The translations under genes and the position numbers were made by a program. A DNA stretch of 43,595 bases from an uncultured Woeseiaceae bacterium (GTDB taxonomy: Bacteria; Pseudomonadota; Gammaproteobacteria; Steroidobacterales; Woeseiaceae), in NCBI GenBank assembly GCA_902512585.1, contig CABXJW010000010.1, positions 1 through 43,595 of the forward strand, written 5' to 3'. Shown one piece after another: positions 16,666 to 40,207 of this stretch. Under the pieces are notes generated by a model that did not search any database, was not told the origin of the DNA, and saw only the letters and a program-made list of their open reading frames with translations. Position 1 is the stretch's first letter. Each line of letters begins with the position of its first letter.

Positions 16666-17211
16666 CTAGCGAAGCACTTCTCCGGTTTTAATATTCTTTA
16701 TCGTTGATACGCTTGTATTCTTAAAGCAATGACCAGGAACGATATAGTCTACAATATTTCTAAATACTCTTCGCAAGATAAGTGAATTTTTTGGAGGCTG
16801 TTTACCAGTTATATTTGCACTGGTGGAGATCAATGCCGAATTTAATTGATCGCATAGTGCTTTTACTGTGGGATGTTTGGTTAATCGAATGGCTATAGTA
16901 GGGTGTTGTCCTGATAGCCAATAAGGAGTATTTTTATTTTTATTAACTAACCAAGTAATGTGTCTTTTCTCTGCTTTAATTTTTTTAATTTCCGCATTAT
17001 TAAGAGATACCCATGTTTGAATTTGGCTTAATTCAGAAGCAATAATTATAAGGCCCATATCAGGATTACGATTTTTAATGCTTAAAATCCGAAAAACAGC
17101 TTCAGGATTATTAGGTAGGCAGCCAAATCCAAAAACACCCTCGGTTGGGTAAGCTATAACGCCACCTTTTTTTATTACTCGACACGCTTTTTTTATATTT
17201 TCAGACGAAAT
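16666..17211 (-). CDS. tsaC: Threonylcarbamoyl-AMP synthase TsaC (YrdC/Sua5), no canonical start codon
   Basis: Makes threonylcarbamoyl-AMP for the t6A37 modification of tRNAs that read ANN codons. The first in-frame ATG (17058) would give only 130 residues and would cut off the active core. Upstream, the same frame encodes GGVIAYPTEGVFGFGC and IKNRNPDMG, the start and KxR region of the family, back to a TAA at 17245-17247. Within that open stretch there is no ATG, GTG, TTG or CTG. I place the start provisionally at ATT 17211, giving 181 residues. ATC 17214 and ATA 17229 or 17232 are alternatives. The KxR and SxN (STSAN) tetrad is intact, but the second Lys of the E. coli RPVDKG segment is Met. 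It begins about 40 bases behind the topA stop. Confidence 0.85.
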   Translation of the reverse strand: MSSENIKKACRVIKKGGVIAYPTEGVFGFGCLPNNPEAVFRILSIKNRNPDMGLIIIASELSQIQTWVSLNNAEIKKIKAEKRHITWLVNKNKNTPYWLSGQHPTIAIRLTKHPTVKALCDQLNSALISTSANITGKQPPKNSLILRRVFRNIVDYIVPGHCFKNTSVSTIKNIKTGEVLR

Positions 17212-17252
17212 GATTAGGTACCAATTTATTATCTTTGAATTAGATTAAATGT

Positions 17253-19880
17253 TTAGTTTTTGAGTTTTTGTTCCCATACATTATTTTCATACACAGCAGT
17301 CCATTTTGTTTTCTTGCCGTTTTTTTCGGAGGCTAGGTAATGTACATCATCAGTTTTATTGTATCTAATAACAAAAGGATTACCGTCTTTATCATATTCA
17401 GGAGCACCCATAAGATAGTTATGTTTTTTAGTGTTTGGCAGGTATTTACATGCTTGTATAAACTGATCTTGTAGATGATTTATTTCAGATACTTTGGGCG
17501 CTCTTGTTTCTCTATTTTTTGGAAACTTGCTAGCTGCGAGAAATAAACCCTTCATACTATCTCTAAGCAAATAATGATCATCGCACTTCAAGCATAACAA
17601 TTCAGGCAATGCTATTGGCTCCATACTCAATGGTTTTGGTTCTCCATTTCGCTGTAATTGTCTTGTCGTGCCACAATCTTCATTAGAGCAGGCAAAGTAT
17701 TTTCCGAACCTTCCAGTTTTAAGTTGCATCTCGACTGTGCATTTATGACACTGAATAGTCGGACCGTCATAACCTCTTATTTTGAATTTTCCTGATTCTA
17801 CTTTGAACCCCTCACAGTCTGGATTTTTACCGCAAACATGTAGTTTGCGTGTTTCATCAATTAGGAAATTATCCATGCTCGTGGAGCAGAGCTCACATCT
17901 TTCCTTAATCAAAAGATTTTCTGCTTCCTCTTGATCATCAACACTGACTGCCTCGTCTCCTGAGGTTAAATTTAATGTTTTTTTGCATTTTTCATCTCCA
18001 TTATTTTCGTACCCAGAGCAACCTAAGAAAACACCATTAGAGGCATTTCGTATGACCATATGATATTTTTCACATTCTGGGCAGGTAATATCAGTTTTAA
18101 CTGGATTATTTGCTCGCATACCATTTTCATCATTTGATGCGGAATTTAGATCATTTTTAAATGCATGATAAAAGTTATCCAGAACTTCCTTCCAGTCCAT
18201 TTCTCCATTTGCAACTTTGTCCAAATTATCTTCAAAATTAGCTGTAAAATCATAATCCATTATGTCATCGAAGTTTTCTAATAGTCGTTCAGTTACTATA
18301 TGCCCAATTTTCTTTACAAAAAATCTTCTATTTTGAATTTCAACATAACCCCTATCTTGAATTGTAGAGATAATTGATGCGTAGGTAGAGGGTCTCCCAA
18401 TGCCTTTTTTTTCCAGCTCCTTAACTAAGGCTGCTTCTGAAAATCTAGCCGGTGGCTTTGTATATTTCTTTTCTAGGTTTAATTTTTGTAGTACTAGCTC
18501 ATCACCTTTCGAGAGTGATGGTAATATTTCATTACTAGGATCTTTAGTATTATCTTTGGCAATTTTTGTGTAACCATCAAACACTACTTCTCTACCTCTC
18601 GCGGTAAATACGTAATCATCGAGAACTATCTTTGCTGATGTTGATAGATATTGAGCATCAGGCATTTGCGATGCTATATATTGTTGCCATATTAGTTGAT
18701 ATAAGCGAGTTTCTTCTTCGCTTACATTGCTTAATGTATTTGAAGTCAAGAAAGCATTCGTTGGTCTAATTGCTTCATGAGCTTCTTGAGCATTCTCAGT
18801 ACTAGAATATATTCTTGGACTATCCGTCAGATAATTACTACCAACTTTGTCGTTTATATAGTTTCTTGCATCTTGAATCGACTCTTGACTGAGGCTGGGG
18901 GCGTCGGTTCTCATATAAGTAATATATCCTGCTTCATATAATTTTTGCGCTACTCGCATAGTTCTTTTTACATTAAAGCTGAGTTTTGTTGATGCCGCTT
19001 GCTGGAGGGTTGAGGTAATAAATGGGGGCCTGGGTTTTATTTTTATTGGTTTTTTTATTATCTCATTAATTCGCAGTGGATTATTTTCTATCAGACGTTC
19101 TATATTTTTTGCTTCCACCTCTGAGAGTAATGGGTCTGATTTTTTTCTTAATAATGTGAATAATATGGAGGTTTGATCTTCATTGAGAAGGCTCATTGAG
19201 ATTGCCCAAAATTCCTTAGGAACGAACTCTTGAATTAATCGTTCTCTTTCATCTAATAATCTTAGAGCGACTGATTGGACTCTACCTGCTGATAATCCTC
19301 TGGCAATCTTTTTCCATAATAATGGTGAGAGCTCAAATCCAACCACTCGGTCTAAGAATCGTCTCGCCTGTTGAGCTTGCACTAAATCTATGTCTATTTC
19401 CTTTGGATCAGAGAATGACGCTAATATTGATGATTTAGTTATTTGGTTAAATCTTACACGAGAAAATTCATACTTTTTGGGGCCCAAAGCTTCTTTTAGA
19501 TGCCACGCAATTGCTTCACCTTCTCTGTCTAAATCTGTCGCTAAATAAATGTGGTCAACATTTTTAGATGCTTTTTTTAATTCCTTTATTACTTTTTCTT
19601 TTTCAGGAATTATTTCATATTCTACTGCCCAGCCATTATCTGGATCAATACCCATTCTTCTTATCAATCGAGATCTGTCATTAATAGCTTTGAGTTTGAT
19701 TTTTTCTTCTTCACTGATATTTTTTGGTATTTCAGTTCTTTTTGCTGAAGCTCGTGACTTACCTTTTGGCAGATCTCGAATATGACCTACGCTAGATTTA
19801 ACAATATATTCATCACCCAAATATTTTGAGATAGTTCTTGCTTTCGCGGGAGACTCAACAATTACTAGATTATTAGCCAT
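17253..19880 (-). CDS. topA: DNA topoisomerase I
   Basis: Type IA topoisomerase relaxing negative supercoils. The N-terminal Toprim domain begins with LVIVESPAKARTI and contains the acidic ATDLDREGEA motif. The active-site Tyr322 is in YITYMRTD, nearly the E. coli position (319). Three C-terminal Cys4-type zinc ribbons are visible (CPEC...CSGYE...C, CELC...CGKNPDC and CHKC...CSNEDC), followed by a degenerate fourth repeat (CLKC...) with only its first Cys pair. The 875 residues match the family. It sits between smg and tsaC, where E. coli retains only a short topA-like zinc-finger gene. It starts at ATG 19880, 21 bases after smg. Confidence 0.96.
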   Translation of the reverse strand: MANNLVIVESPAKARTISKYLGDEYIVKSSVGHIRDLPKGKSRASAKRTEIPKNISEEEKIKLKAINDRSRLIRRMGIDPDNGWAVEYEIIPEKEKVIKELKKASKNVDHIYLATDLDREGEAIAWHLKEALGPKKYEFSRVRFNQITKSSILASFSDPKEIDIDLVQAQQARRFLDRVVGFELSPLLWKKIARGLSAGRVQSVALRLLDERERLIQEFVPKEFWAISMSLLNEDQTSILFTLLRKKSDPLLSEVEAKNIERLIENNPLRINEIIKKPIKIKPRPPFITSTLQQAASTKLSFNVKRTMRVAQKLYEAGYITYMRTDAPSLSQESIQDARNYINDKVGSNYLTDSPRIYSSTENAQEAHEAIRPTNAFLTSNTLSNVSEEETRLYQLIWQQYIASQMPDAQYLSTSAKIVLDDYVFTARGREVVFDGYTKIAKDNTKDPSNEILPSLSKGDELVLQKLNLEKKYTKPPARFSEAALVKELEKKGIGRPSTYASIISTIQDRGYVEIQNRRFFVKKIGHIVTERLLENFDDIMDYDFTANFEDNLDKVANGEMDWKEVLDNFYHAFKNDLNSASNDENGMRANNPVKTDITCPECEKYHMVIRNASNGVFLGCSGYENNGDEKCKKTLNLTSGDEAVSVDDQEEAENLLIKERCELCSTSMDNFLIDETRKLHVCGKNPDCEGFKVESGKFKIRGYDGPTIQCHKCTVEMQLKTGRFGKYFACSNEDCGTTRQLQRNGEPKPLSMEPIALPELLCLKCDDHYLLRDSMKGLFLAASKFPKNRETRAPKVSEINHLQDQFIQACKYLPNTKKHNYLMGAPEYDKDGNPFVIRYNKTDDVHYLASEKNGKKTKWTAVYENNVWEQKLKN

Positions 19881-19901
19881 TATTTTATTTTAAACCTATG
19901 T

Positions 19902-20378
19902 TTAATGTAAAAATTCACTTTTTGTATCAAAGATTAAGTCTTCCATTTGAGAGTATGCTTTTTCTTGGTCAGGCTGACTGAATAAAACCATTAATACAAC
20001 CCATTTAATTTGGTCAACATTTATTTCAACTGATTCTAGAGCAAGTAACCGATCAATCAATAATTCTCTTTGTATTGTTGAAAGTATATTAATCTGTTCA
20101 AGATAACTAATAAAACCCCTGCAATTTGCATCGAGATGATTAGTTTCTATACTATTATAAACTCTGGTGGTGCTATCTTCCTGGTTAGTATCTATGAAAT
20201 GATTGTTATAATCTGCTAATCCATCCAACCAATCTAGAGCCTTGTCAATTTCGTTGTTACTGAAGCCAGCCTTTATTAACTCAATCCTCAGAGTGTTTTG
20301 ATCGGCTTCAGGCTCATCCTCAGTTTCAATATAGGTTTCAAATAAATACATTAAAACATCAAGTACGTTTTCTTTCAT
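19902..20378 (-). CDS. smg: Smg family protein (DUF494)
   Basis: A 158-residue acidic protein of the Smg/DUF494 family, whose biochemical role is not established. The N-terminus KENVLDVLMYLFETYIE and the region ending in ALDWLDGL are typical of the family, as is the C-terminal half with conserved LDLEQxKWVVLMVLF-like sequence (here VDQIKWVVLMVLFSQP). It has no signal peptide or membrane segments, so it is probably cytoplasmic. The start codon is preceded by AGGAAGAG. Neighbours smg-topA-tsaC and divergent def are the usual setting, except that dprA and the LysM-protein gene that normally lie between smg and def are missing. Confidence 0.88.
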   Translation of the reverse strand: MKENVLDVLMYLFETYIETEDEPEADQNTLRIELIKAGFSNNEIDKALDWLDGLADYNNHFIDTNQEDSTTRVYNSIETNHLDANCRGFISYLEQINILSTIQRELLIDRLLALESVEINVDQIKWVVLMVLFSQPDQEKAYSQMEDLIFDTKSEFLH

Positions 20379-20619
20379 TAGCTCATCTCTTCCTGTGAGA
20401 ATTTCTATCGATCGATCATAAATTTTAAAATTATTAATACTTGGATATTAAATATAGTCAAACTTTAAAATATGGAGCATGGATTAATCTGCGTCAATCG
20501 TCAATATTCAATATTAAAAATTACATATAATTAAAAGAAATACGAAACTATTATCTGTATAACTGTTTATATATAATCAATTATTAGATTAATTTAAATG
20601 CAAGGCTAAATTTTTTATT
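20379..20619. promoter_or_regulatory. Divergent promoter region between smg and def
   Basis: This 241-base gap is very AT-rich and must hold promoters for both gene runs. I see no convincing coding frame or RNA gene in it. Visible items are ATCGATCGATC near 20407, a short direct repeat of GTCAAT near 20493-20505, and an exact TATAAT at 20572-20577 upstream of def. Confidence 0.45.
20572..20577 (+). promoter_or_regulatory. Possible -10 box for def
   Basis: Exact TATAAT 42 bases before the def ATG, in the divergent intergenic region. The hexamer 17 bases upstream (TATTAT) is a poor -35 match, so the call rests on the -10 sequence and location only. Confidence 0.3.
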
Positions 20620-21141
20620 ATGACTATATTAAAAATATTAGAATTTCCTGATCCAAAATTAAGGATTAAAGCTGTGCCTGTCGAGACTATTGATGATGCT
20701 TTGCAGGTAATCATCGATAATATGTTAGAAACAATGTATGCGGCTCCTGGAATTGGTTTAGCAGCAACTCAGGTGGATATCCATAGGCGATTTTTAGTAG
20801 CGGATATTACTGCTGAAAAGAATAAACCTTATGTACTTATAAATCCAAAAATTATTAAAAAAAATGGCTTGGAGGTAACCGAGGAAGGTTGTCTCTCAGT
20901 ACCAGGATACTTCGATTCAGTTGAGCGAGCAGATAGTATTTGTGTGAGTTACTTGGATCGGCAGGGTAATCAGCAAGAAGAGGAGATGGGAGGATTATTA
21001 GCGGTGTGTGTCCAGCATGAAATAGATCATCTTGATGGAAAACTATTTGTTGATTATCTTTCTGAGGCGAAAAGGCAAAAAGTTAGAAAAAAATTACATA
21101 AGAGTAGAAAACTTCAATCTGATTCATCAATTATGCTCTAA
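20620..21141 (+). CDS. def: Peptide deformylase
   Basis: Metalloenzyme that removes the formyl group from new protein N-termini. All three family motifs are present: GIGLAATQ (residues 44-51), EGCLSVPG with metal ligand Cys91, and HEIDH with ligands His133 and His137. The 173 residues are normal for the type 1 enzyme. It begins a tight plus-strand operon, with fmt starting 16 bases after its stop. The pairing is functional: Fmt adds the formyl group to initiator methionyl-tRNA and Def removes it after synthesis. Confidence 0.97.
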
Positions 21142-21157
21142 AACCATCATTTAAATT

Positions 21158-22102
21158 ATGAATATTAGTTTAAATGATTTTCGGGTGCTTTTTGCAGGAA
21201 CCCCAACATTTTCAGTGCCATCACTTAACGCTCTTATAGAAATGGGCCTAAACCCGAAGGCTGTGATAACTCAGCCAGACAGAAGGGCAGGGCGAGGAAA
21301 GATATTAAAGAAAAGCCCTGTAAAAATTTTTGCTGAAGATCATGCCATACCAGTATGGCAACCAACATCAATGAGTGATAGTAGTTTACTCCATGAAATC
21401 AAATCAATTAAGCCTGATCTCATAGTGGTCGCTGCATATGGAATGTTGCTACCTAAAATTATCTTAGGTATCCCAAAATATGGTTGTTTGAACGTTCATG
21501 CCTCTTTACTACCAAAATGGAGAGGTGCGTCACCAATACAATCAGCCATTTTATATGGAGACACATATACTGGTATCAGTCTCATGAAAATGGAGGAAGG
21601 TCTCGATTCGGGACCAGTTTTTTCTCAACATCAATTAAAAATAGCACCATATGAAACTGCGGATGAATTAAATAATCGCCTGGCTGAATTGGGCGCTCAT
21701 GCATTACTGGAGAACCTTTCGTCTATCCTAAGTGGTGATATATCATTCGATAAGCAAGATACAAAAACAGTCACAATTGCAAAAAAAATAAAAAAAGCCG
21801 ATGCAAGAATTGATTGGAAACAGAGTGCTGATTATATCGCACGTCATATTAGAGCTTATAATTCATATCCGGGCGCATATTTTTGTTTGGGAGATGAGTG
21901 CATTAAATGTTGGATGGCAGTAAGTTCAAATCATCAATCTCAAATACCAGGTAAGATTATTAAAATTACTAAATCTGGAATAGAAGTTGCATGTGGGCAA
22001 GGTTCATTAATAATGGAAGTGGTTCAGAGGCCAGGTAAAAATAAAGTAACTGCAATCGAGTTTTCTAGGCAAGTTGACTTTGAAGGCCTTGATTTTACAT
22101 AA
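21158..22102 (+). CDS. fmt: Methionyl-tRNA formyltransferase
   Basis: Transfers a formyl group from 10-formyl-tetrahydrofolate to initiator Met-tRNA. The N-terminal domain has VLFAGTPTFSVPSL, the folate-site NVHASLLPKWRGASPIQ (catalytic Asn and His, SLLP loop) and MEEGLDSGPV with the catalytic Asp. The C-terminal OB-fold domain begins near residue 205 and contains RAYNSYPGAY. The 314 residues match E. coli Fmt (315). It lies between def and rsmB with gaps of 16 and 8 bases, certainly co-transcribed. Confidence 0.97.
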   Translation: MNISLNDFRVLFAGTPTFSVPSLNALIEMGLNPKAVITQPDRRAGRGKILKKSPVKIFAEDHAIPVWQPTSMSDSSLLHEIKSIKPDLIVVAAYGMLLPKIILGIPKYGCLNVHASLLPKWRGASPIQSAILYGDTYTGISLMKMEEGLDSGPVFSQHQLKIAPYETADELNNRLAELGAHALLENLSSILSGDISFDKQDTKTVTIAKKIKKADARIDWKQSADYIARHIRAYNSYPGAYFCLGDECIKCWMAVSSNHQSQIPGKIIKITKSGIEVACGQGSLIMEVVQRPGKNKVTAIEFSRQVDFEGLDFT

Positions 22103-22110
22103 GTATTCAT

Positions 22111-23445
22111 ATGAGTAATGGTGTAAAAATAAGAGCTAAAGCTGCTGTAGTAATTGATCAGGTTACGCAAAAAGGTCGCTCATTAGATCGAGCTATCGAA
22201 GTAATTGGCTTAGATAAAAATAGTAAACAAAAATCTCTATTTATGGCGATTTGCTATGGAGCAATACGTCACTATTGGGAACTTCAAGCTGATCTTAATA
22301 GATATATTTCTCGTCCCATTAAGAAAAAAGATAGTGTTATTGAAAATTTAATTGTTAGTGGTTTATTTCAAATAAAATACACACGTATCCCCGCTCATGC
22401 TGTTGTGGTGCAGACTGTAGAGGCGGCAAAGGATTTAAAAAAACATAATTTATCCGCATTTGTGAATGCTGTGTTGAGAAAATATTTACGTACTAGTAAC
22501 AGCGCCAATATGGTTTTGGAAGATCAAGCTATTTATAATCATCCGCAATGGTTATTAGATCAGTTTAGAGAGGATTGGCCAGATCACTGGCAAGAAATTT
22601 GCAAAAATAATAATATTCAAGGACCAATGTGGCTAAGGGTAAATCGAAAGAAGATAGAGACAAAAAAATATCTCAGTAAAATTGCGGAATCTTTGAATAA
22701 ATCATTAGAGGAAACGGGGTATATTGGTGATTTAGACCACTCAATCTGCCTTAATGATCCGATATCTGTAGATTTGTTACCAAATTTTGAAAAAGGCTTT
22801 GTTTCTGTTCAAGATGGAGCGGCCCAGATTGCTGCTGAAATTCTATTGAATGGTCGAAACGGTAAAATACTGGATGCCTGTGCGGCACCTGGCGGAAAAA
22901 CGGGACATCTTTTGGAGATAATAGATAGTAATTCTTCTGTTACAGCAATTGACATAGACCCTAAAAGAACCGAAATTATTAATGATAATCTCATGCGATT
23001 AGATTTATCGGCTAATGTTATTAGTGCTAATATTTTAGATACAAAAAAATGGTGGAATTCAGAATTATATGATTTGATTTTACTAGATGCTCCTTGCTCA
23101 TCGACTGGAGTGATACGAAGACATCCAGATATTAAGCATCTTAAGCGCAAGGAAGATATAGATTCATTGAATAACACGCAAAGTAGAATTTTAAATTCCT
23201 TATGGAATCTCTTGGCACCAGGTGGCTATCTGTTGTATGTGACATGTTCAATTTTGAAAAAAGAAAATGATTTGGTAATTAAATATTTTTTAAATAGAAA
23301 TACGACTGCCATTCAAAAGAATTTGTTGCTAAATAACAACATAAACGATGTAATGCATAAAACAGACTATGGTTGCCAGTTATTACCTGGAACTAAAGGT
23401 ATGGATGGTTTTTATTTTTCTTTGTTAAAAAAGGCTGTGCTTTAA
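22111..23445 (+). CDS. rsmB: 16S rRNA m5C967 methyltransferase
   Basis: SAM-dependent enzyme that methylates C967 of 16S rRNA. The N-terminal NusB-like RNA-binding domain (to about residue 140) ends with NAVLRKYLR. The methyltransferase domain has VQDGAAQ, the SAM loop DACAAPGGKTGHLLE, and two catalytic cysteines: DAPCSSTGVIRRHPD (nucleophile region) and VTCSILKKEN. The 444 residues are close to the E. coli length of 429. It is third in the def-fmt-rsmB operon. In many relatives trkA follows, but here a DUF4390 gene comes next, three bases away. Confidence 0.95.
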   Translation: MSNGVKIRAKAAVVIDQVTQKGRSLDRAIEVIGLDKNSKQKSLFMAICYGAIRHYWELQADLNRYISRPIKKKDSVIENLIVSGLFQIKYTRIPAHAVVVQTVEAAKDLKKHNLSAFVNAVLRKYLRTSNSANMVLEDQAIYNHPQWLLDQFREDWPDHWQEICKNNNIQGPMWLRVNRKKIETKKYLSKIAESLNKSLEETGYIGDLDHSICLNDPISVDLLPNFEKGFVSVQDGAAQIAAEILLNGRNGKILDACAAPGGKTGHLLEIIDSNSSVTAIDIDPKRTEIINDNLMRLDLSANVISANILDTKKWWNSELYDLILLDAPCSSTGVIRRHPDIKHLKRKEDIDSLNNTQSRILNSLWNLLAPGGYLLYVTCSILKKENDLVIKYFLNRNTTAIQKNLLLNNNINDVMHKTDYGCQLLPGTKGMDGFYFSLLKKAVL

Positions 23446-23448
23446 AAA

Positions 23449-27631: not shown

Positions 27632-27633
27632 TT

Positions 27634-27999: not shown

Positions 28000-28047
28000 A
28001 TTGGCCAGATTTATTTTTAGTTTCGTTAAACTATTTCCAAGTAAAAT

Positions 28048-29793: not shown

Positions 29794-29821
29794 TTCATCA
29801 CTCCGTCTTACTAATTAAGTT

Positions 29822-32008
29822 TTAGAACAGTTCGATTGGATCAACATCAATTGACCATTTTACACGGTGAGTACATTTTTTTCTTTCTATCTTTTTGAAT
29901 AATAATGCAATTTGTTGGTGCAATGGCTTGCGATTTTCGCAATGTAATAATAATTGACCACGAAATCTTCCAGCTTTTTTTTCCATCGGTGAACTTACTG
30001 GTCCTAATATGTTTATACCGTCAAATTTATTACTCACAATAATTTCATTAGCAGTATTTAAAAAATCCCATGTAAAATCCTTTCGATGGGAGCTTGCTCG
30101 AATTAAAATTAGATTCGAAAATGGTGGCCAGGATGCCTCTTCGCGCTCTTTTATTGTCTGTTTGGCAACTTCTTTATATCCACCATCGAATAATGCCCCC
30201 CAAAATGGATGATCAGGATATTCTGTTTGAATTAGCACCTGCCCTTTTTGTTCCTCTCTTCCTGCTCTCCCTGACACTTGTATGAGATTTTGAGCTAAGC
30301 GTTCACTTCCCCTAAAATCCATACTAAATAATCCTTGATCCGCATTTATAACAGCAACCAGACTTAAAGATGGAAAATGATGACCTTTTGAAATCATTTG
30401 AGTTCCTACTAATATCTTAGCTTTACCAGTTATTGCTAGAGTTAATGCATCGTCCATGGATCCTTTTAGGCGTGTTGAATCACTATCTATCCGTTTAATT
30501 GAAATATTTGCAAAGTTCTTTTTGAGGGCCTCTTCTATTCTTTGTGTGCCTTGACCTAGTGCTGCATATTCTGCGCCGCACAAATTACATTCATGTGTGT
30601 AAGAGCGAGATGAACCGCAGTGATGACAGGTCAGTAATTTTTTTGATTGATACACGGTCATTCTGGAATCGCATCGGGGGCATTGCGCAACATGATTGCA
30701 TGATTTGCATATTAGCGTAGGTGCGAAACCTCTTCTGTTTATGTATATCAAAACTTGTCCATTATTTTTTAAATGTTTTTTAATGATTTTAATGAGTTTT
30801 TGACTTAATCCATCCGGCATATATTCTTTCGTAACATCAATAAGATGCATTGAAGGTAATTTGGCTCTACCTGCTCTTTTTTCTAGTACGAGACGTTTAT
30901 ATTTTTTTTGTGTACAGCGATATAAACTTTCTATTGATGGTGTTGCAGAACCGAGAACGACAGGAATATTGTGATAACTGCCTTTTGCTATAGCTAAATC
31001 TCTTGCGGAATATCTGAAGCCATCTTGTTGTTTATAAGAAACATCATTTTCTTCATCAACGATAATAATTCCGAGATTTTCTGTGGGTGCGAATATTGCT
31101 GATCTTGTTCCTAATATTAGATTTGATTTAGAATTTTTTATTGCTTGCCATGCAGTAAATCTTTCTCGTTCAGTTAAAGCTGAATGTATCATCGCAGGTT
31201 TGATACCTATTCTTGCAATAATACGCTTTATGAATTGTGAGGTTAATCCAATTTCAGGGACCAATATAAGGCATTGTTTATTCTTTTTTATGACATTTAA
31301 AATAAGCTGTAAGTAAACTTCAGTTTTACCGCTACCAGTTACTCCATCCACCAGAAATGTCTGAAATTCTAGGCTATTATTTATTATATTAACTGCTTTT
31401 TTTTGCTCAGAGTTTAAATTTGGACCTTTAGTAGGTCTAGATAATATTGGAGATTCATCATTTGAACTGAGGGCTTTAGTTACCTTAATCCAACCTTTGT
31501 TACTCAAACTATTTTTTTGGACTCGCCAGTCGATACTTAGATCATCGAGAATATCTACAGTGACAGGACCTTTTTTTTGCAAATAATTAATCAATGCCGC
31601 TTGTTTTGGCGCATTTTTTATAATGCTCTCAGCTTTTATCACTTTACCCTTATTGGTTAAATGCAACTTTTCAATAAAATTGACAGTTGGTTTTCCTTTT
31701 CTTAAGTGACTCGGCATTGCAGCAGCAACAACTCTCCCAATAGGATGAAGATAGTATCTACTAGCGAATGAAACTAGCCAAAGGGTTGCCTCAGAGAAAA
31801 TCGGCTTTTCATCAATGATTTCTGTGCATTTTTTTATTTTTGATTTGGGTATCGTGCTTGTTTTTGTAACTTCGAGAATAAGTCCTATTTTTTGTTGTCT
31901 ACCGAATGGAACTTTTACTCGACAACCAATAACAGATATATCACATACCTCGCTGATCAATAAATAGTCAAATAATTGAAATAAAGGGGCATCTATTGCT
32001 ACTTTAAT
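29822..32008 (-). CDS. priA: Primosomal replication protein PriA, no canonical start codon
   Basis: Superfamily 2 helicase that restarts stalled replication forks. It has Walker A GVTGSGKTEVYL, an eight-Cys zinc region (CKSC, CPRC, CHHC, CNLC) and SGRAGREE. Motif II is DEEN instead of the usual DEEH. The first usual start, TTG 31960, would drop the conserved 3'-DNA-end-binding strand. Upstream the frame encodes IIKVAIDAPLFQLFDYLL, which matches the family N-terminus, and it stays open to a stop at 32063-32065 without any ATG, GTG or TTG. I place the start provisionally at ATT 32008 (728 residues, E. coli 732). ATA 32011 is an alternative. An ATG at 32058 is out of frame (ATG GGA TAG). It begins 65 bases after the pntB stop. 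Confidence 0.9.
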   Translation of the reverse strand: MKVAIDAPLFQLFDYLLISEVCDISVIGCRVKVPFGRQQKIGLILEVTKTSTIPKSKIKKCTEIIDEKPIFSEATLWLVSFASRYYLHPIGRVVAAAMPSHLRKGKPTVNFIEKLHLTNKGKVIKAESIIKNAPKQAALINYLQKKGPVTVDILDDLSIDWRVQKNSLSNKGWIKVTKALSSNDESPILSRPTKGPNLNSEQKKAVNIINNSLEFQTFLVDGVTGSGKTEVYLQLILNVIKKNKQCLILVPEIGLTSQFIKRIIARIGIKPAMIHSALTERERFTAWQAIKNSKSNLILGTRSAIFAPTENLGIIIVDEENDVSYKQQDGFRYSARDLAIAKGSYHNIPVVLGSATPSIESLYRCTQKKYKRLVLEKRAGRAKLPSMHLIDVTKEYMPDGLSQKLIKIIKKHLKNNGQVLIYINRRGFAPTLICKSCNHVAQCPRCDSRMTVYQSKKLLTCHHCGSSRSYTHECNLCGAEYAALGQGTQRIEEALKKNFANISIKRIDSDSTRLKGSMDDALTLAITGKAKILVGTQMISKGHHFPSLSLVAVINADQGLFSMDFRGSERLAQNLIQVSGRAGREEQKGQVLIQTEYPDHPFWGALFDGGYKEVAKQTIKEREEASWPPFSNLILIRASSHRKDFTWDFLNTANEIIVSNKFDGINILGPVSSPMEKKAGRFRGQLLLHCENRKPLHQQIALLFKKIERKKCTHRVKWSIDVDPIELF

Positions 32009-32073
32009 TATGCAATCAGTTTTTTTTACTTGGTTATTTTTGACTTTTACTATCCCATCTTTTTATCAATAAT

Positions 32074-33450
32074 TTATAGTGATTTAACAGCTTGGATTAA
32101 TTCTCCAGCCACCTCTTGCCCATCACCATAAAGCATTCTTGTTTGATCTAAGAAAAATAGTGCATTCTCAATACCAGAAAACCCCGCACCTTGGCCGCGC
32201 TTTACAACAACTACATTTTTTGCATAATCAGCATTTAAAATGGGCATACCATAAATTGGACTGGAAGGATCAGTTCTTGCCACTGGATTAACCACGTCAT
32301 TAGCACCAATAATTAAGGCTACGTCTGCAGATTCAAATTCGGAGTTGATTTCATTTTCATCATAAATAATATCATATGGAACTCCCGCTTCAGCGAGCAA
32401 TACATTCATATGTCCCGGCATACGTCCTGCTACTGGATGAATAGCAAATTTAATATCAACACCACGCTCAATTAGTAGTTGTGTTAATTCCCAAACTTTA
32501 TGTTGCGCTTGGGCAACTGCCATGCCATAACCTGGAATAATTAAAACTTTATTTGCAAATGCCATCATCACACCAACATCTGTAGCATCTATTGGTTTCA
32601 TAGAGCCAGTAACCTCTTGACCTTCAGCTATAGTTTCACCAAATCCTGAAAATAAAACATGAGCCAATGATCTATTCATTGCCTTGGCCATTAATTGTGT
32701 CAAGAGTGATCCTGCCGCGCCCACAACAGTTCCAGCAATAATCATTGCAGGATTTTGTTGCACAAAACCTTCAAAAGCTACAGCTAGTCCGGTAAATGCA
32801 TTGTAGAGTGATATCACAACAGGCATATCTGCACCACCGATTGGCACAGTCATTGTTACACCCAAAACTAACGATAACATGAAAAATATTGAGACTAGGT
32901 TACCCGAAGAGTGCTGAGTAATAATCATCACTGCCACTACAAGTGAACTCAGTAATAAAGCCAAGTTGAGCATTTGCTGGCCTTTAAAACGCAATGTGGT
33001 ATTTTTAAATCCTTGTAATTTTGCAAAAGCGACCAAACTACCACTAAAAGAGACGGCACCAATAAAACCACCTAATACTGCTAATATTCCAAATGTTAAA
33101 CCATGGTCTTTACCGCTAAAAAGTTCGACCGCTGCAATTGCTGCTGCTGCACCACCTCCCATACCATTATATAGAGCTATCATTTGTGGCATATCGGTCA
33201 TAGCAACTTTTTTGCCACTAACCCAGGCTATGACACCGCCCAGACCGATAGCGATTACCATTAACAGGTAATTAGTCATACCTGGAAATAGGAAAGTTAC
33301 TATGGTTGCTAGTCCCATGCCAACTCCAGCCCATACAATACCTCCACGCGCAGTGACAGGGGAGCTCATTCTCTTCAGGCCAAAAATAAAAAGAACTGCT
33401 GCTAAAAAATAACTTAAGTCAATTATTAGCGTCATATTTAGCATATTCAT
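32074..33450 (-). CDS. pntB: Proton-translocating NAD(P) transhydrogenase, beta subunit
   Basis: Beta subunit of the inner-membrane transhydrogenase that makes NADPH from NADH using the proton gradient. The first half has about eight or nine membrane helices. The C-terminal NADP(H)-binding domain has VIIPGYGMAVAQAQHKV, AIHPVAGRMPGHMNVLLAEA and the GANDVVNPVAR segment, all diagnostic. The 458 residues compare with 462 in E. coli. Its ATG overlaps the pntA2 stop by one base (TAATG), so the subunits are translated together. Confidence 0.97.
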   Translation of the reverse strand: MNMLNMTLIIDLSYFLAAVLFIFGLKRMSSPVTARGGIVWAGVGMGLATIVTFLFPGMTNYLLMVIAIGLGGVIAWVSGKKVAMTDMPQMIALYNGMGGGAAAAIAAVELFSGKDHGLTFGILAVLGGFIGAVSFSGSLVAFAKLQGFKNTTLRFKGQQMLNLALLLSSLVVAVMIITQHSSGNLVSIFFMLSLVLGVTMTVPIGGADMPVVISLYNAFTGLAVAFEGFVQQNPAMIIAGTVVGAAGSLLTQLMAKAMNRSLAHVLFSGFGETIAEGQEVTGSMKPIDATDVGVMMAFANKVLIIPGYGMAVAQAQHKVWELTQLLIERGVDIKFAIHPVAGRMPGHMNVLLAEAGVPYDIIYDENEINSEFESADVALIIGANDVVNPVARTDPSSPIYGMPILNADYAKNVVVVKRGQGAGFSGIENALFFLDQTRMLYGDGQEVAGELIQAVKSL

Positions 33451-33755: not shown

Positions 33756-33757
33756 TA

Positions 33758-34885
33758 TTATAACCCTCCTTCTATTGCTTCTTTAGATGATTCATGCACA
33801 ATCTTTCCATCACGCGTAAGATTTGATTGAATAAAAACCTCATCTTCCCAATCAATTATTAAATCACCATCTTTGATTGCAGGTGCTAAGAAATTAAATA
33901 AATTTCTCGCATACATTTCACTTGCATGTTTACCAAGTGATGCGGCTAAATTAGTTGGGCCGACAATTTTTACGTTGTTATCTAATACAGTCTCACCGGC
34001 CTTTGTGAGTTCACAATTACCACCTGTTTCTGCTGCCAGATCAACAATAACAGCACCAGGTTTCATCGCTCTAACTGCGGAGGCTCTGATAATTTTAGGA
34101 GCTGGTTTTCCAGGTATAGCTGCTGTTGAGATAACTACATCACAATTTGCAATTTCTTTTTCTAAAGCATCTTGCTGGGCTAATTTTTCTTCATCAGTTA
34201 ACTCTCTGGCATAACCACCTTTACCTTCAGCTGAAACCCCAGTTTCAACGAATTTCGCACCAAGTGACTCTATTTGTTCCTTTGTAGCGCTGCGAACATC
34301 ATAGCCTTTGACGATCGCACCTAACCTTTTTGCCGTAGCAATCGCCTGCAGACCAGCAACGCCAGCACCAATAATGAGGATTTGAGCTGGCCTAATGGTG
34401 CCCGCTGCAGTTGTTAGCATGGGGAAGAATTTATCAAGAGTATTGGCAGCAATCAGAACTGCTTGATAACCCGCAGCCGCCGCCTGAGAAGATAATACAT
34501 CCATACTTTGAGCTCGGGAGATTCTCGGCATTAACTCCATCGCAAAGCTAGTTTGTTCATTTGTTTTAAGTGAGTTAACTGTTTTTTTGTTTAAATGCCC
34601 AAAAATCATACCAACAACATAATTATTTTTACCAAGAAGATTTGATTGTTCTGCAGTTATTGGCTGAACAGCCAATAATAAATTTGATTTTTTGAGAACC
34701 TCGGATGCGGTATCAAAATTAACCCCTTCATATTCTTCATCGAGAAAATTAGAGAGTGACCCTGCCCCTTTTTCCATAATTATATCTACATTAAGTTGTG
34801 TGAGTTTTTTAGCAATTTCAGGTGTAATAGCAACCCGTGTCTCATCTGCGGCTGTTTCTTTGAGCACGCCAATGGTAAATGACAT
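33758..34885 (-). CDS. pntA1: NAD(P) transhydrogenase, alpha subunit NAD-binding part
   Basis: Soluble NAD(H)-binding domain I of the transhydrogenase, 375 residues. The start IGVLKETAADETRVAITP matches the alanine dehydrogenase/PntA family signature. RISRAQSMDVLSSQAAAAGY follows in the middle, with the nucleotide fold GAGVAGLQAIATAKRLGA and YDVRSATKEQIESLGA after it. A GGAGAAAG ribosome site lies directly before the ATG (34889-34896). It leads a minus-strand run pntA1-pntA2-pntB-priA-argS, whose promoter must be in the 317-base gap that follows. Confidence 0.96.
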   Translation of the reverse strand: MSFTIGVLKETAADETRVAITPEIAKKLTQLNVDIIMEKGAGSLSNFLDEEYEGVNFDTASEVLKKSNLLLAVQPITAEQSNLLGKNNYVVGMIFGHLNKKTVNSLKTNEQTSFAMELMPRISRAQSMDVLSSQAAAAGYQAVLIAANTLDKFFPMLTTAAGTIRPAQILIIGAGVAGLQAIATAKRLGAIVKGYDVRSATKEQIESLGAKFVETGVSAEGKGGYARELTDEEKLAQQDALEKEIANCDVVISTAAIPGKPAPKIIRASAVRAMKPGAVIVDLAAETGGNCELTKAGETVLDNNVKIVGPTNLAASLGKHASEMYARNLFNFLAPAIKDGDLIIDWEDEVFIQSNLTRDGKIVHESSKEAIEGGL

Positions 34886-35208
34886 TATCTTTCTCCAAAA
34901 TTATTGTACGAAAATAAATTATCGTTTAGCTGTATATAGGTATATATTATTTAAAAATAGTTTTTTGTTTTTTTAAGGCCATTTAATTAATTAACAAAGT
35001 ATTTGCCTTTTAAGTACATGCCATAATGACATAAGAGCCAATAATTCGAAAACTCTTTTTTTACAATATTTTAAAACTAATTCTAAGCAATTAATGTTAA
35101 AGGATAATCAATTGTTAATAGGTTCAGCCAGAAAATTATCCAAGTGTATTCAGCCCTCAAATATCATAAATAATATAACTGATAGCTTCAATAAAATAGG
35201 GGGTGTAT
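34886..35208. promoter_or_regulatory. Divergent intergenic region between pntA1 and the 5'-3' exonuclease gene
   Basis: About 320 AT-rich bases between divergent genes, expected to hold both promoters. The clear elements are the pntA1 ribosome site (GGAGAAAG on the minus strand at 34889-34896) and, at the other end, an AGGGGG site (35198-35203) for the exonuclease. A 43-codon frame (35094-35225) is present but has no ribosome site or recognisable similarity. I see no RNA gene or terminator hairpin. Confidence 0.5.
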
Positions 35209-36093
35209 GTGCAGTATCTAATTGATGCGAGTGTTTATGTATTTAGAGCTTATTATTCTATGCCAGATGATATTGTCGATAATGATGGTAATCCAATAAA
35301 TGCATTTTATGGGTTCTGTCGATTTATTGGTGATTTTATGGAACAAACTAAACCGGAACACATTGCTATTCTCTTTGATGATAGTTCGGGTTATTCTTTT
35401 AGATCAGAAATATATCCTCCTTATAAAGCAAATCGTGACCCTGCACCTCCTGAACTAAAAAAACAGTTTAGACAGTGTGAGGAATATATTAATTTATTAG
35501 GATTAATGAATTGGAGCCATCCTAATTATGAAGCTGATGACCTAATTGGTACGCTGGCTCGATTAGGCAGACAGGAGGGCAGAGCATCAACTATTGTTTC
35601 TAGAGATAAAGATCTAGCACAATTAGTTGGTCAAGATGATATTTTTTGGGACTACTCCGGTAAGGGAAAGATTACCTATCAACAAATACCCGATGTGTTT
35701 GGAGTTTGGCCTGAACAAATAGCTGACTTCTTAGCCTTAGCTGGAGATAGTGTTGATAACATTCCTGGAGTCCCCGGTGTAGGGAAAAAGACAGCTATAG
35801 CTCTGCTCAAGAATTTTCAGGACTTAAAGAGTATTTATGGGAATTTATCCTTGATTAATAATGTTGATATAAGAGGTGCTAAGACATTAGGGAATAAGCT
35901 CGAGAAACATGAAGATGATGCTTTTTTAGCGAGAAAGTTAACAGGTATTGATTGTTATGCACCATTAGAAAGCACCATGAACCTCAAACCATCTAGACCT
36001 GATTTAGATGGTATTAATCAGTTGTTTGATCAACTCGGAGTGGGAACTGCGTTGAGGCGGCAAGCAGATAGAATTAATCAATTAATTAATTGA
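35209..36093 (+). CDS. Stand-alone 5'-3' exonuclease of the DNA polymerase I N-terminal type
   Basis: Flap-endonuclease-like nuclease of 294 residues, equivalent to the first domain of PolA and not fused to a polymerase. The metal-binding acids are all visible: LIDASVYVFRAYYS, LFDDSS, YEADDLIGT, SRDKDLAQLV, and GDSVDNIPGVPGVGKKTA with the helix-three-turn-helix DNA clamp. I choose GTG 35209, because AGGGGG lies five bases before it. The GTG at 35203 would overlap that site. It is longer and more complete than E. coli Xni (251), which lacks one acid set, so it is probably an active flap nuclease acting beside a separate PolA. It overlaps hemH by eight bases, tail to tail. Confidence 0.9.
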   Translation: MQYLIDASVYVFRAYYSMPDDIVDNDGNPINAFYGFCRFIGDFMEQTKPEHIAILFDDSSGYSFRSEIYPPYKANRDPAPPELKKQFRQCEEYINLLGLMNWSHPNYEADDLIGTLARLGRQEGRASTIVSRDKDLAQLVGQDDIFWDYSGKGKITYQQIPDVFGVWPEQIADFLALAGDSVDNIPGVPGVGKKTAIALLKNFQDLKSIYGNLSLINNVDIRGAKTLGNKLEKHEDDAFLARKLTGIDCYAPLESTMNLKPSRPDLDGINQLFDQLGVGTALRRQADRINQLIN

Positions 36094-37201
36094 GGTTATT
36101 TTCTCTCTCTATAGTTACTTTCGAATACTCATGTGCCGTTTTTTCAGCTTCTAAAGAATTTTGCTGTGATGGCTCAATAAGCCAGTCTGAGATATTTTTA
36201 GTAACTAAGGTATTTAACAAAGATATATGGCTGTCATCAGAATTTAATGCTGGGATATACCGTAGTTCTTTGCCCCCGGCTTCTGTATAAAATTCATTAT
36301 TTTGCATTGCAATTTCTTCTAGTGTTTCTAGACAATCAGCTGCAAAACCTGGGCATATAACATCTACTATGCCGCCTTGATTTTCTCCCCAATTAATTAA
36401 AGTTTGTTCGGTGTATGGTTCAAGCCATTTTGCACGTCCTAAGCGCGATTGAAAACTTACAAACCATTCATCATCTTTAAGTGATAATTTCTCGGTGATT
36501 AATCTAGCTGTCTTTAGGCACTGACAATGATAAGGATCGCCATCGATAAGCATTTTGTGAGGTAGGCCATGGAAAGAAAATAGAAGTTTTTCACCTTTCC
36601 CATTTATTTCCCAAAATGACTTTATACTGTCTGCAAGGATATCTGTATATGAGGGCTCATCATGATAATGATTAATGAAGCGAAATTCAGGTATCCAGCG
36701 TCGCTTTGCCAGTGTTTTCGTGACATTCTCAAATACAGATCCTGTGGTTGTATTTGAATATTGAGGATACAAGGGAAGTAGGAAGATCCTTCTGACTGAG
36801 TTGTCATAAAATTTTTCTAAGGCATAATCAATTGAGGGCTCACCATAGGACATTGCAAGCTCTACCTGAACGTCTTTTTTTCTTTTTTTATTAATTTTTA
36901 ATTTTAACTTTTCAGAAATTTTTTGCGAGTGAAGAAGAAGAGGCGAACCATTTTCCGTCCATATCTTTCGATAAGCTTCAGCTGATTTAAATGGTCTGAA
37001 AGGTAATATGAATAAATATAAAATAAGGAACCAAAGAAATTTTGGGATTTCTATTACTCGATAATCTGACAAGAATTCTCTTAGATAGTTTCGAACTGAA
37101 TTTGCAGTTGGTTTTTCAGGAGTACCCAGATTAACTAAAAGAATACCAACTGAGTCGGTTTCTCCATGCGTATATTCAGGTTTTGAGTTGAAACGTGCCA
37201 T
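36086..37201 (-). CDS. hemH: Ferrochelatase
   Basis: Inserts Fe2+ into protoporphyrin IX, the last step of haem synthesis. It has VGILLVNLGTPEKPT near the N-terminus, GSPLLLHSQ, the active-site His in LFSFHGLPHKML, the SFQSRLGRAKWLEPYT segment and the CPGFAADCLETLEEI Glu-containing motif. The 371 residues are longer than E. coli HemH (320) because of a 16-residue N-terminal lead and a charged C-terminal tail of about 30 residues. With hemB and hemF in the same window, the haem genes are scattered but close. It is followed tail to tail by the exonuclease gene. Confidence 0.95.
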   Translation of the reverse strand: MARFNSKPEYTHGETDSVGILLVNLGTPEKPTANSVRNYLREFLSDYRVIEIPKFLWFLILYLFILPFRPFKSAEAYRKIWTENGSPLLLHSQKISEKLKLKINKKRKKDVQVELAMSYGEPSIDYALEKFYDNSVRRIFLLPLYPQYSNTTTGSVFENVTKTLAKRRWIPEFRFINHYHDEPSYTDILADSIKSFWEINGKGEKLLFSFHGLPHKMLIDGDPYHCQCLKTARLITEKLSLKDDEWFVSFQSRLGRAKWLEPYTEQTLINWGENQGGIVDVICPGFAADCLETLEEIAMQNNEFYTEAGGKELRYIPALNSDDSHISLLNTLVTKNISDWLIEPSQQNSLEAEKTAHEYSKVTIERENNLN

Positions 37202-37261
37202 ATTAATTATCGGATTTTAAAAATTTGCTAATTTACCATAATTGGAATCATGAGAGCTTTA

Positions 37262-38905
37262 TCATACTTCATTTTTTGTAACATATTGTTTATAAGCTTG
37301 GATGGCTTTGTGACCAAATATCCAGCATATAGGTAAATTTGCGTAAATAATGATCCCCAACCCTATACCACTGAGATTATCTAAATCAACACTAGTTTCT
37401 ATGAAGCCCAATGAGGCTATGAAGATTAAAAGACAATAAATGATACGAAAAGGGTTGATGCCATTCTCTCCGAGTATATATATTATTCCTTGTTCTCCAT
37501 AATAACCCCATGCCATTATTGTGGAAATGGCGAAAAACCAAGAAGCAATTGTTATTAACCATTTACCTAGACCGATACTCATGCTGTCAAATGCCTTAGC
37601 GGTGAGCGTTGCTCCAACATAATCAAAAAAATACCCATGTAAATAAATTGTGGGTTTTGTATTTGATTCGAAGTTACTCCAAGTTATCTCTCGATGATCA
37701 CCAATTTTCTTGATGATGCCAGATACTTTATGAATATTTTGATTTGATTCAAAATTCTTGGAAGCTTTGACTAGCATAATAACAGGATCACCAGGTTTCC
37801 CATTCGCATTTGAATGTCTTGTATTTGAAAAAGTCCATATTTTAGAATCATTTCCAATGGTTGGTGTTTTATCGAAACTTACATCAGGAGCTCTATTCCA
37901 TATTCCAGTTGATAAAATAATTAAAGCAGTAAATGTACACACAACTAAGGTATCTATTAATGGCTCGATTCCAGCAACTAATCCCTCACGAACTGGTTCA
38001 TTTGTTTTCACCGCAGAATGAGCGATAGCTGATGATCCTTGACCTGCTTCATTTGAAAAGATAGCGCGTTTCATGCCAAACATAAATGCTGAACCAGCAG
38101 TTCCACCTATAAAAGCTCCAGTTGCCTGTGTTTCTGTAAATGCAGAAACAACTATCAGTTTTAATAAATCAGGAATATCACTTATATTGGCAATAAGAAT
38201 GTAAGATCCAGCAAGTAAATAAAGAAAGACCATGAGCGGAACTATCGTAGCTGTAACAACACCTATTCTCTTTATCCCGCCAATGATAACTGATCCAACA
38301 ATAAGCGATAGAATTAATCCACTTTTCCATCCTTCAATACCGAAATATTCATAAGTAATATCTGCCACGCTCCATGCTTGGAACATGTTTCCTCCAGTAA
38401 TCGCAGAAGTTATTACACTGATAGAAAAAATAATAGCTAGTATTTTTCCAGTACGGGCATAGCTTGGGTAAAATTCTTTAAATGCTCTTTCTGCTACCCA
38501 CATCGGACCACCATATGGTTTTTCTGGATCGTCAACGTTTCGATATATCATAGCTAGGGTAACTTCAATCAATTTTATTGACATACCCAATATTGCAACT
38601 ACCCACATCCAAAATATGGCACCAGGCCCACCCAGTGTAATTGCCAAAGCCACGCCACTAATATTTCCTAATCCAAGAGTTCCAGATAATGCAGCAGAAA
38701 GTGCTTGAAAGTGACTAATTACTCCGCTATCACTAGGATTATTGAAGTCCCCACGAATTATTTTTGGACTATCCATGATAATTCTATATTGAGCAAAACC
38801 GGACCAAATGGTAAAAATCACCCCTGTACCGGCGATGATAAATATCCACGTCTCATTCCATAGAATGCTATTGATGATTGCCAGTATGTCTCTGAAATAT
38901 TCGAT
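37262..38905 (-). CDS. AGCS-family sodium:alanine/glycine symporter, no canonical start codon, large loop insertion
   Basis: Sodium-driven amino-acid importer. Family motifs include ALSGTLGLGNISGVA, GGPGAIFWMW, GGPMWVAERA, MFGMKRAIFSNEAGQGSS and the late WGYYGEQ. The first usual start (GTG 38821) would fall inside the first membrane helix. Upstream the frame encodes RDILAIINSILWNETW and IFIIAGTG, which matches the family N-terminus, and is open to the thiolase stop (38924-38926) with no ATG, GTG or TTG. Candidates are ATC 38905 (used here, 547 residues, AGG seven bases upstream) and CTG 38884 (AGAGA four bases upstream). A soluble insertion of about 95 residues sits between TGIWN and GATLTAKAF, probably outside the membrane. 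Confidence 0.88.
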   Translation of the reverse strand: MEYFRDILAIINSILWNETWIFIIAGTGVIFTIWSGFAQYRIIMDSPKIIRGDFNNPSDSGVISHFQALSAALSGTLGLGNISGVALAITLGGPGAIFWMWVVAILGMSIKLIEVTLAMIYRNVDDPEKPYGGPMWVAERAFKEFYPSYARTGKILAIIFSISVITSAITGGNMFQAWSVADITYEYFGIEGWKSGLILSLIVGSVIIGGIKRIGVVTATIVPLMVFLYLLAGSYILIANISDIPDLLKLIVVSAFTETQATGAFIGGTAGSAFMFGMKRAIFSNEAGQGSSAIAHSAVKTNEPVREGLVAGIEPLIDTLVVCTFTALIILSTGIWNRAPDVSFDKTPTIGNDSKIWTFSNTRHSNANGKPGDPVIMLVKASKNFESNQNIHKVSGIIKKIGDHREITWSNFESNTKPTIYLHGYFFDYVGATLTAKAFDSMSIGLGKWLITIASWFFAISTIMAWGYYGEQGIIYILGENGINPFRIIYCLLIFIASLGFIETSVDLDNLSGIGLGIIIYANLPICWIFGHKAIQAYKQYVTKNEV

Positions 38906-38923
38906 AATAAAACCTAATATAAT

Positions 38924-40207
38924 CTATTTTTCCATTATGGCTGTTATACCCATTCCACCGGCTGTACAGATTGATATAAGACCTCTTCCAGAGCCCCTTT
39001 TATTGAGGAGTTTTGCCATGGTTGCTACTATTCTGGCACCAGTGGCAGCGAATGGGTGACCGATAGCAAGACTTCCACCTTTTATATTCATTTTGTTTGA
39101 ATCAATCGCTCCCATAGCTGACTGTCTATTTAGTTTTGTTCGGCAAAATTCCTCTGATTCCCATACTTTGAGAGTTGCAAGAGTTTGAGCAGCGAATGCT
39201 TCATGTATCTCGTAGAAATCAAAATCTTGTAGATTGAGATCAGCTTTTTTTAGCATATTTGATACTGCATATGCAGGCGCCATGAGTAAGCCTTCATCAT
39301 CAATATAATCTATTGCTGCAATTTCAATATGCGAAAGATACGCTTCAATATCAAGATTATTGTCTTGAGCCCATTCTTCGGAACTAAGTAATACAGCAGC
39401 AGCACCATCGGTAAGAGCGGTACTATTTCCTGGCGTCATTGTCCCTTCATTACTTCTATCAAAGACTGGCTTTAGGGATCCAAGCTTATCAAGTGAGGGA
39501 TTCTTTCTAATTAAATTATCTTGATGGATGCCATTATATGATGCAATTAGATCATCATAGAAACCCTCTTCATATGCACTGGCAGCTTTTGAATGGCTTT
39601 CGAAAGCTAATTGGTCTTGTGATGCACGAGATATAGCATACTTCTTTGCAATAATTTCCGTACTTTCTCCCATTGATAATCCTGTTCGAGGTTCTTTTAC
39701 TCCAGGAAGTTTTGGCTTTAAGTACTTTAATTTCATTCGCAACCAAGGCTTTATTTTATTTGTAAGTGATTTACCACTGGCGCTTGATAGTAGAATTTTT
39801 CTTAATTCATCACTAAAAACAATGGGCGCATCACTAATAGAATCAACACCACCCGCAATACCCGATTCAATCTGCCCTAGTGCTATTTTATTTGCAATAT
39901 TCATTGTGGTTTCTAAACTCGTCCCACAAGCTCTTTGCATATCTACACCTGGTGTTTCTATGGATAATCCTGAATCAATAATGCATTCTCTTGATAAATT
40001 CCAATCACTGGAGTGCTTAATAACCGCACCTAGCGCAACATCACCTAATCTTTTATTTTGGAGGTTAAATTTTTTGACCGTTGCTTGTAACACAGCAGTC
40101 ATCATTTCTTGATTTGAGGAATCTTTGTATCCAGTATTAGCTCTACAAAATGGAATTCTTGAACCGCCAATCACAGCAACTCTTTTGGATTTTCCATCAT
40201 AAGACAT
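38924..40207 (-). CDS. Acetyl-CoA C-acyltransferase (thiolase), FadI-like
   Basis: Thiolase of 427 residues, cleaving 3-ketoacyl-CoA in fatty-acid beta-oxidation (or condensing acetyl-CoA). Nucleophile Cys94 is in MQRACGTS. The other catalytic residues are in EIHEAFAAQ, GHPFAATGAR and SICTAGGMG. Several segments, such as TGLSMGESTEIIAKKY and LNIKGGSLAIGHPFAATGAR-like sequence, resemble FadI, the alpha-partner-dependent form, more than PhaA. No fadJ/fadB partner is encoded in the window. An AAGGAG site lies before the ATG. The AGCS symporter frame begins directly after its stop, in the same reading frame. Confidence 0.92.
   Translation of the reverse strand: MSYDGKSKRVAVIGGSRIPFCRANTGYKDSSNQEMMTAVLQATVKKFNLQNKRLGDVALGAVIKHSSDWNLSRECIIDSGLSIETPGVDMQRACGTSLETTMNIANKIALGQIESGIAGGVDSISDAPIVFSDELRKILLSSASGKSLTNKIKPWLRMKLKYLKPKLPGVKEPRTGLSMGESTEIIAKKYAISRASQDQLAFESHSKAASAYEEGFYDDLIASYNGIHQDNLIRKNPSLDKLGSLKPVFDRSNEGTMTPGNSTALTDGAAAVLLSSEEWAQDNNLDIEAYLSHIEIAAIDYIDDEGLLMAPAYAVSNMLKKADLNLQDFDFYEIHEAFAAQTLATLKVWESEEFCRTKLNRQSAMGAIDSNKMNIKGGSLAIGHPFAATGARIVATMAKLLNKRGSGRGLISICTAGGMGITAIMEK

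Follow-up and report, generated by a model that had tools for sequence, protein, structure and literature searches.

The window, that is, the whole stretch of 43,595 nt analyzed here, is contig C10 of a low-GC draft genome (1.11 Mb, 65.7% complete) of an uncultured Woeseiaceae bacterium, and its GC content is 34 to 38% in 2-kb steps. Its reverse strand carries tsaC, priA, and the gene for an AGCS sodium:amino-acid symporter, each behind another gene (Table 1). A preliminary description of this DNA held that the conserved N termini of the three proteins are encoded in open frames without ATG, GTG, or TTG (here, usual codons), and stop-to-stop frames and profile searches confirmed this. The same description placed a same-strand gene within about 70 bases upstream of each, which is also the case, at the stop-to-start distances given in Table 1.

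Table 1. Coordinates of the frames, genes, and proposed or candidate start sites (window positions unless a genome and contig are named)
Feature	Position	Strand	Remarks
tsaC, stop-to-stop frame	16666-17244	-	First usual codon ATG 17058, 62 codons in
tsaC (threonylcarbamoyl-AMP synthase), read from proposed ATC	16666-17214	-	PF01300, NF007919
Proposed tsaC start, ATC ATT (either codon)	17209-17214	-	ATC ATT also in G004, G005, G008
topA, gene upstream of tsaC	17253-19880	-	TIGR01051; stop 38 nt before ATC
priA, stop-to-stop frame	29822-32062	-	First usual codon TTG 31960, 34 codons in
priA, read from proposed GTC	29822-32044	-	PF17764 from profile position 1
Proposed priA start, GTC	32042-32044	-	GTT in G003, G007; fixed distance from AGG/GGG in 7/7 genomes
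Shine-Dalgarno-like GGG of priA, 9 nt before GTC	32054-32056	-	AGG/GGG at same spacing in 7/7 genomes
pntB, gene upstream of priA	32074-33450	-	Stop 29 nt before GTC; sole NCBIfam match NF006974, below model cut-off
AGCS, stop-to-stop frame	37262-38923	-	First usual codon GTG 38821, 34 codons in
AGCS sodium:amino-acid symporter, read from proposed ATC	37262-38905	-	TIGR00835; structure 6cse
Proposed AGCS start, ATC	38903-38905	-	ATH column across genus; ATG in G013
Possible AGCS Shine-Dalgarno AGG, 7 nt before ATC	38913-38915	-	Window sequence
Thiolase, gene upstream of AGCS	38924-40207	-	NF006740; stop 18 nt before ATC
gpsA, apparent CTG start	G000:C3 near 29463; G008:C3 near 50074; G001:C1 near 111042; G003:C25 near 47275		
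cmk, candidate ATT	G001:C4 32637-33350		TTG in G003
DedA-like, candidate ATA	G003:C27 32791-33375		ATG in G001
DctQ, candidate ATC	G008:C3 60327-60836		ATG in G001, G003
Carboxylesterase family, candidate; frame opens ATT directly after stop	G003:C24 74844-76631		ATG two columns earlier in G001

Read from 17058, TsaC enters profile NF007919 at position 45 and scores 102 bits, compared with position 3 and 164 bits when the upstream part is included; both versions fall below the 175-bit cut-off of that model, and both pass PF01300. PriA read from 31960 begins at position 24 of the 96 in the 3′-DNA-binding domain PF17764, rather than at position 1, and AGCS read from 38821 begins at position 14 of TIGR00835, rather than at position 3, a small loss. 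Solved structures extend into the same upstream parts: residue 17 of the TsaC frame aligns to residue 10 of YrdC, and residue 12 of the AGCS frame aligns to residue 5 of AgcS (6cse), residue 1 of which would by extrapolation lie one residue after the ATC. The alignment of PriA to a solved structure begins at frame residues 18 to 20, and extrapolation from the alignment to 8fak puts the beginning of that structure about nine residues inside the proposed start.

The genus was sampled with nine genomes, the window's own (G000) and eight others. The nearest named records are AG-313-J15 (99% PriA identity), FRAM18_bin273, ANT-115, AG-333-A13, MED-G80, and SP56, all six labeled as MAGs and five of them as Woeseiaceae, with MED-G80 labeled as Gammaproteobacteria; AG- names usually denote single-cell genomes. 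The family sample also includes genomes of other genera, three of 1.4 to 1.5 Mb and most of 2 to 5.4 Mb. Within the genus, priA is full length in seven of the nine genomes, tsaC is present in seven, and AGCS is present in eight, the match in G004 being a paralogue.

No usual codon lies near the AGCS start in any of the eight genomes. The start column reads ATC in G000, G005, G006, and G008, ATT in G001 and G007, and ATA in G003; in G002, whose frame opens TAA-AAA-GCG-ACA-ATA-ATC-ATT and whose first usual codon is the 31st, ATT was placed in the same context by eye, giving ATH in 8/8. Outside the genus this start was compared with G013 only, a member of another genus, which has ATG. Where the window has GTG 38821, no usual codon is found in G001, G002, G005, or G008. 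The preliminary statement that no usual codon precedes the nearest upstream stop holds in the window but not letter for letter across the genus, as the AGCS frame of G003 contains a far-upstream ATG within the 3′ end of the thiolase gene; because this ATG masks the absence, the automatic test called AGCS in 5/6. As to a possible Shine-Dalgarno sequence, G005 and G008 have only GG at 8 nt, and none is evident in G001, G002, G003, or G007.

The tsaC start separates two clades. ATC ATT is found in four of seven genomes, which are all four members of one clade (G000, G004, G005, and G008), and an in-frame TTG stands at about the same place in all three members of the sister clade (G001, G002, and G003). 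Since the frame opens TAA-AGA-ATC-ATT in G004, G005, and G008, the conserved region has no near-cognate codon at its end other than ATC or ATT. No good Shine-Dalgarno sequence was found before the proposed start in the genus alignment; the heptamer ATTGGTA just upstream (17219-17225, reverse strand) is kept in four genomes and would make a poor one. The preliminary description had suggested looking among relatives for usual codons in some and ATH in others at the same site, and this pattern was found for tsaC within the genus and for AGCS in the comparison with G013.

In priA, no usual codon precedes the conserved start in any of the seven genus genomes that have the gene. A GTY codon is kept in all seven, as GTC in G000, G001, G005, G006, and G008 and as GTT in G003 and G007, in each case exactly 9 nt after AGG or GGG, a Shine-Dalgarno-like signal of which the window has a weak version (GATGGG). 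No other conserved codon has a fixed spacing from such a triplet. GUC and GUU have two mismatches from AUG. Codons between GTY and the conserved core change synonymously (e.g., Arg CGC in G001 and AGA in G007), and 16 of the 30 changes in this interval fall on third positions (P = 0.02); the stretch is therefore likely to be translated, which makes a start near the core improbable. A conserved ATH codon three codons before KVA gives no evidence of a start, because it corresponds to Ile or Val in most relatives that start upstream. Beyond the genus, a usual codon is in frame in 57/57 scored PriA records, compared with 0/6 genus records (25 of 88 records were not scored because their best match stopped short of the N terminus, and relatedness among the rest leaves fewer than 63 independent points). 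In 55 of the 57, the usual codon lies no more than 20 codons before the core; the sole one in record L101 is 36 codons upstream of the core, and that in L105 coincides with the core. The comparison shows the lack of a usual priA start to be a property of this genus.

The preliminary description named a shared sequencing or assembly fault as the main alternative. The source genome is an incomplete draft (65.7%), in which errors could have removed ordinary starts, but genomes of several species, assembled separately, show the same absence, and the codon at a given column differs among them. Neither chance nor an assembly fault accounts for the missing codons, since further genus assemblies lack them in the same frames. 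The view that three cases exceed chance oversight was upheld, and we regard the error explanation as refuted by the relatives.

Substitutions between the proposed start and the first usual codon were compared with those in the downstream body for the pairs G005-G008, G001-G007, and G000-G003 (priA and AGCS) or G005-G008 and G000-G004 (tsaC, counted from ATT), by a one-sided binomial test against one-third. Third positions account for 22 of 42 substitutions in priA (P = 0.008; body, 77 of 160), 19 of 35 in AGCS (P = 0.009; body, 78 of 104), and 46 of 79 in tsaC (P = 5e-6; body, 79 of 144). By this measure, the N-terminal stretch is evolving as coding sequence, with a bias like that of the body in priA and tsaC and a weaker one in AGCS. 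This bears on the view that the proteins begin at the later ATG, TTG, or GTG and that upstream conservation is leftover or regulatory. Such codons do exist in the window, and the AGCS that would remain is nearly complete. Against this view stand the coding-like evolution of the upstream stretch, the loss from TsaC of about 50 residues, including the YPTEG region, and the position of the next usual priA codon, at alignment columns 86 to 197 in five genomes versus column 42 for the proposed start. We consider later starts very unlikely.

The conserved frame would also lack a start if translation began at a usual codon in a different frame and then underwent programmed frameshifting of the prfB type. 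The out-of-frame TTG within the ATTGGTA of tsaC, shortly before ATC in all four genomes of the clade, is what suggests this. However, reading from that TTG meets a TGA after seven codons, and conserved Ser-Glu codons account for this TGA. Inspection by eye showed no slippery site in tsaC, and the sister clade has its TTG in frame; for AGCS and priA, nothing of the kind was noticed, in a survey that was not systematic. Frameshifting is, in our judgment, slightly less credible still than later starts. The idea that the three genes are pseudogenes was likewise rejected.

A more serious competitor is strict translational coupling, in which the start is set by nearness to the topA, pntB, or thiolase stop and not by the codon, and nothing is made unless the upstream gene is translated. 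In every genome measured, the stop-to-start distance is short and on the same strand (15 to 31 nt for priA, 18 to 27 nt for AGCS, and 20 to 54 nt for tsaC). Outside the window, the apparent CTG start of gpsA overlaps the stop of secB as CTGA in 4/4 genomes, and in Escherichia coli the loss of RRF is described as giving non-canonical starts after a stop (PMC2268962). Nevertheless, RRF is present in all nine genomes of the genus. In addition, 23 of the 26 tandem pairs in the window, from a list of 35 genes hand-picked from the open reading frames, are no more than 54 nt apart, and all but these three have usual starts in that list, so that spacing does not set tsaC, priA, and AGCS apart. The spacing itself varies (20, 38, or 54 nt for tsaC), whereas priA keeps a Shine-Dalgarno-like triplet at a fixed distance. 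Strict coupling is possible but, on this evidence, rather doubtful. In a milder form, reinitiation likely helps the three starts; roles in reinitiation are ascribed to IF2, IF3, and RRF in PMC2268962.

Those parts of the initiation machinery that were found (IF3, RRF, and initiator tRNA) have a normal appearance. IF3 was found in seven of the nine genus genomes, the exceptions being the drafts G000 (66% complete) and G006 (52%), and RRF was found in all nine, the G007 copy being a fragment at a contig end; loss of either factor was rejected as the cause. A 26-base initiator tRNA motif with the three G-C pairs was matched without mismatch in five of the nine genomes and was not found in four, the 99%-complete G008 among them. 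ARAGORN called tRNA-Met(cat) at four of the five motif loci and none in L270. An altered initiator tRNA was rejected, the motif being normal where found. As to a possibly altered anti-Shine-Dalgarno sequence, a 16S tail was found in one of the nine genomes (G007), with CACCTCCTT intact. With IF3, RRF, and the initiator tRNA motif present, ordinary near-cognate initiation is the simplest account.

We therefore return to near-cognate initiation as the preferred reading: probably, all three genes are undamaged, and the ordinary initiator tRNA begins their translation at near-cognate codons. AGCS would start at AUC, AUU, or AUA, tsaC would use the AUC or the AUU of its AUC-AUU pair, and the most likely codon for priA is GUC or GUU; these exact codons are inferred, that of priA being the least certain. 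A weak Shine-Dalgarno sequence would position the ribosome at priA and some AGCS genes, and ribosomes that have just finished on the gene 15 to 54 nt upstream would probably assist. Because IF3 rejects near-cognate codons, a low output is expected, with an increase under IF3 shortage like that of infC. One base change could give AGCS or tsaC a usual start, yet several species have not acquired it, a sign that initiation that is weak or sensitive to IF3 may be tolerated or even wanted. The preliminary description had listed ATT, ATC, ATA, and CTG as starts. The ATH codons are strongly favored for AGCS and tsaC, and CTG is probable for gpsA, outside the window, but the best candidates for priA, GTC and GTT, were not on that list.

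Several known systems invite comparison. The E. coli pcnB gene has an AUU start; it resembles the present cases in having a near-cognate start on a housekeeping gene and differs in being a single gene in another lineage. Coupling through an overlapping start and stop (ATGA) is matched by the CTGA of gpsA and secB, but the window genes do not overlap their neighbors and start 15 to 54 nt after the stop. The autoregulated infC is a precedent, starting at ATT or ATC (PMC5472188); the likeness is an AUH start kept across species, with ATC in 7/7 genomes of this genus, and the difference is that tsaC and AGCS are unrelated to IF3 and that their third base varies (ATC, ATT, or ATA), whereas infC always has ATC in the genus. 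The Streptomyces sigR gene starts at GTC (at GTT in 2 of 34 species), and IF3 represses it (PMC5472188). The predominance of GTC with GTT in a few is as at priA, but the AGGAGGTG site of sigR is strong and its repression by IF3 has been demonstrated, whereas priA has a weak AGG or GGG. A Shine-Dalgarno sequence as strong as that of sigR, which characterizes that gene and not all IF3-discriminated non-canonical starts, was not present at any of the three genes (weak in priA, partial in AGCS, and absent in tsaC). The best reading is that priA, tsaC, and AGCS would be additions to known non-canonical starts such as those of infC and sigR. We found no report, in the open-licence PMC literature, of non-canonical starts of these genes. 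According to PMC5472188, experiments have characterized hardly any non-canonical starts in bacteria, which makes the conserved priA, tsaC, and AGCS starts good test objects. Gene finders limited to ATG, GTG, and TTG would truncate these proteins; TsaC would lose about 50 residues.

How common such starts are was assessed with orthologue groups from sampled stretches. Flagged groups numbered 30 of 487 in the genus and 40 of 149 in control lineages, many of them antisense or spurious frames; among groups of at least 120 amino acids, 9 of 444 and 9 of 117, respectively, were flagged. On inspection, 6 of 444 were judged clear in the genus (priA, AGCS, tsaC, gpsA, cmk, and a DedA-like gene) and 0 of 117 in the control, where a Dxs-like gene of L113, named by eye, was doubtful. 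The difference is not significant with so small a control (one-sided Fisher P = 0.24), and a lineage-wide excess is at most suggested. The remaining flagged genus groups were prfB, rnpA, and group 50 (a PLP-dependent decarboxylase), the last two not counted as clear; the known frameshift of prfB is what caused it to be flagged, and this shows that the scan works. For 466 groups, a start column was also scored automatically, but the score was too noisy for use; the 98 groups that it picked out were mostly false among those listed.

The scan missed infC, since each of the two sampled genomes has a TTG or GTG upstream by chance. ATC stands at the conserved infC start, behind a GGAG read by eye, in all seven genus genomes in which the gene was found (L055 to L061), and the count of clear cases is accordingly a lower bound. 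In five of the seven frames, TTG or GTG occurs further upstream, so ATC there rests on known infC practice; none was seen in the other two, one of which contains Ns. The CTG of gpsA follows GGAGAC (GGAAAC in G008), and in G001 and G003 no usual codon is available as a fallback; the DNA at this start is also constrained by the SecB C terminus. CTG is likely the gpsA start. A broader proposal would be that the genus keeps infC, AGCS, priA, tsaC, gpsA, in places cmk, and others as a near-cognate regulon that responds to IF3 level and links translation capacity with replication restart, tRNA modification, and uptake, or that initiation is generally relaxed, with AUH an almost normal start; we regard this as unlikely. 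Further candidates from single genomes, in cmk and in DedA-like, DctQ, and carboxylesterase-family genes, are given in Table 1. In rnpA (G000:C3 16000-16392 and G008:C3 36544-36957), the sequence ahead of the conserved region contains neither a usual start nor a clear near-cognate one, and the G000 frame follows the apparent end of rpmH, as judged by eye.
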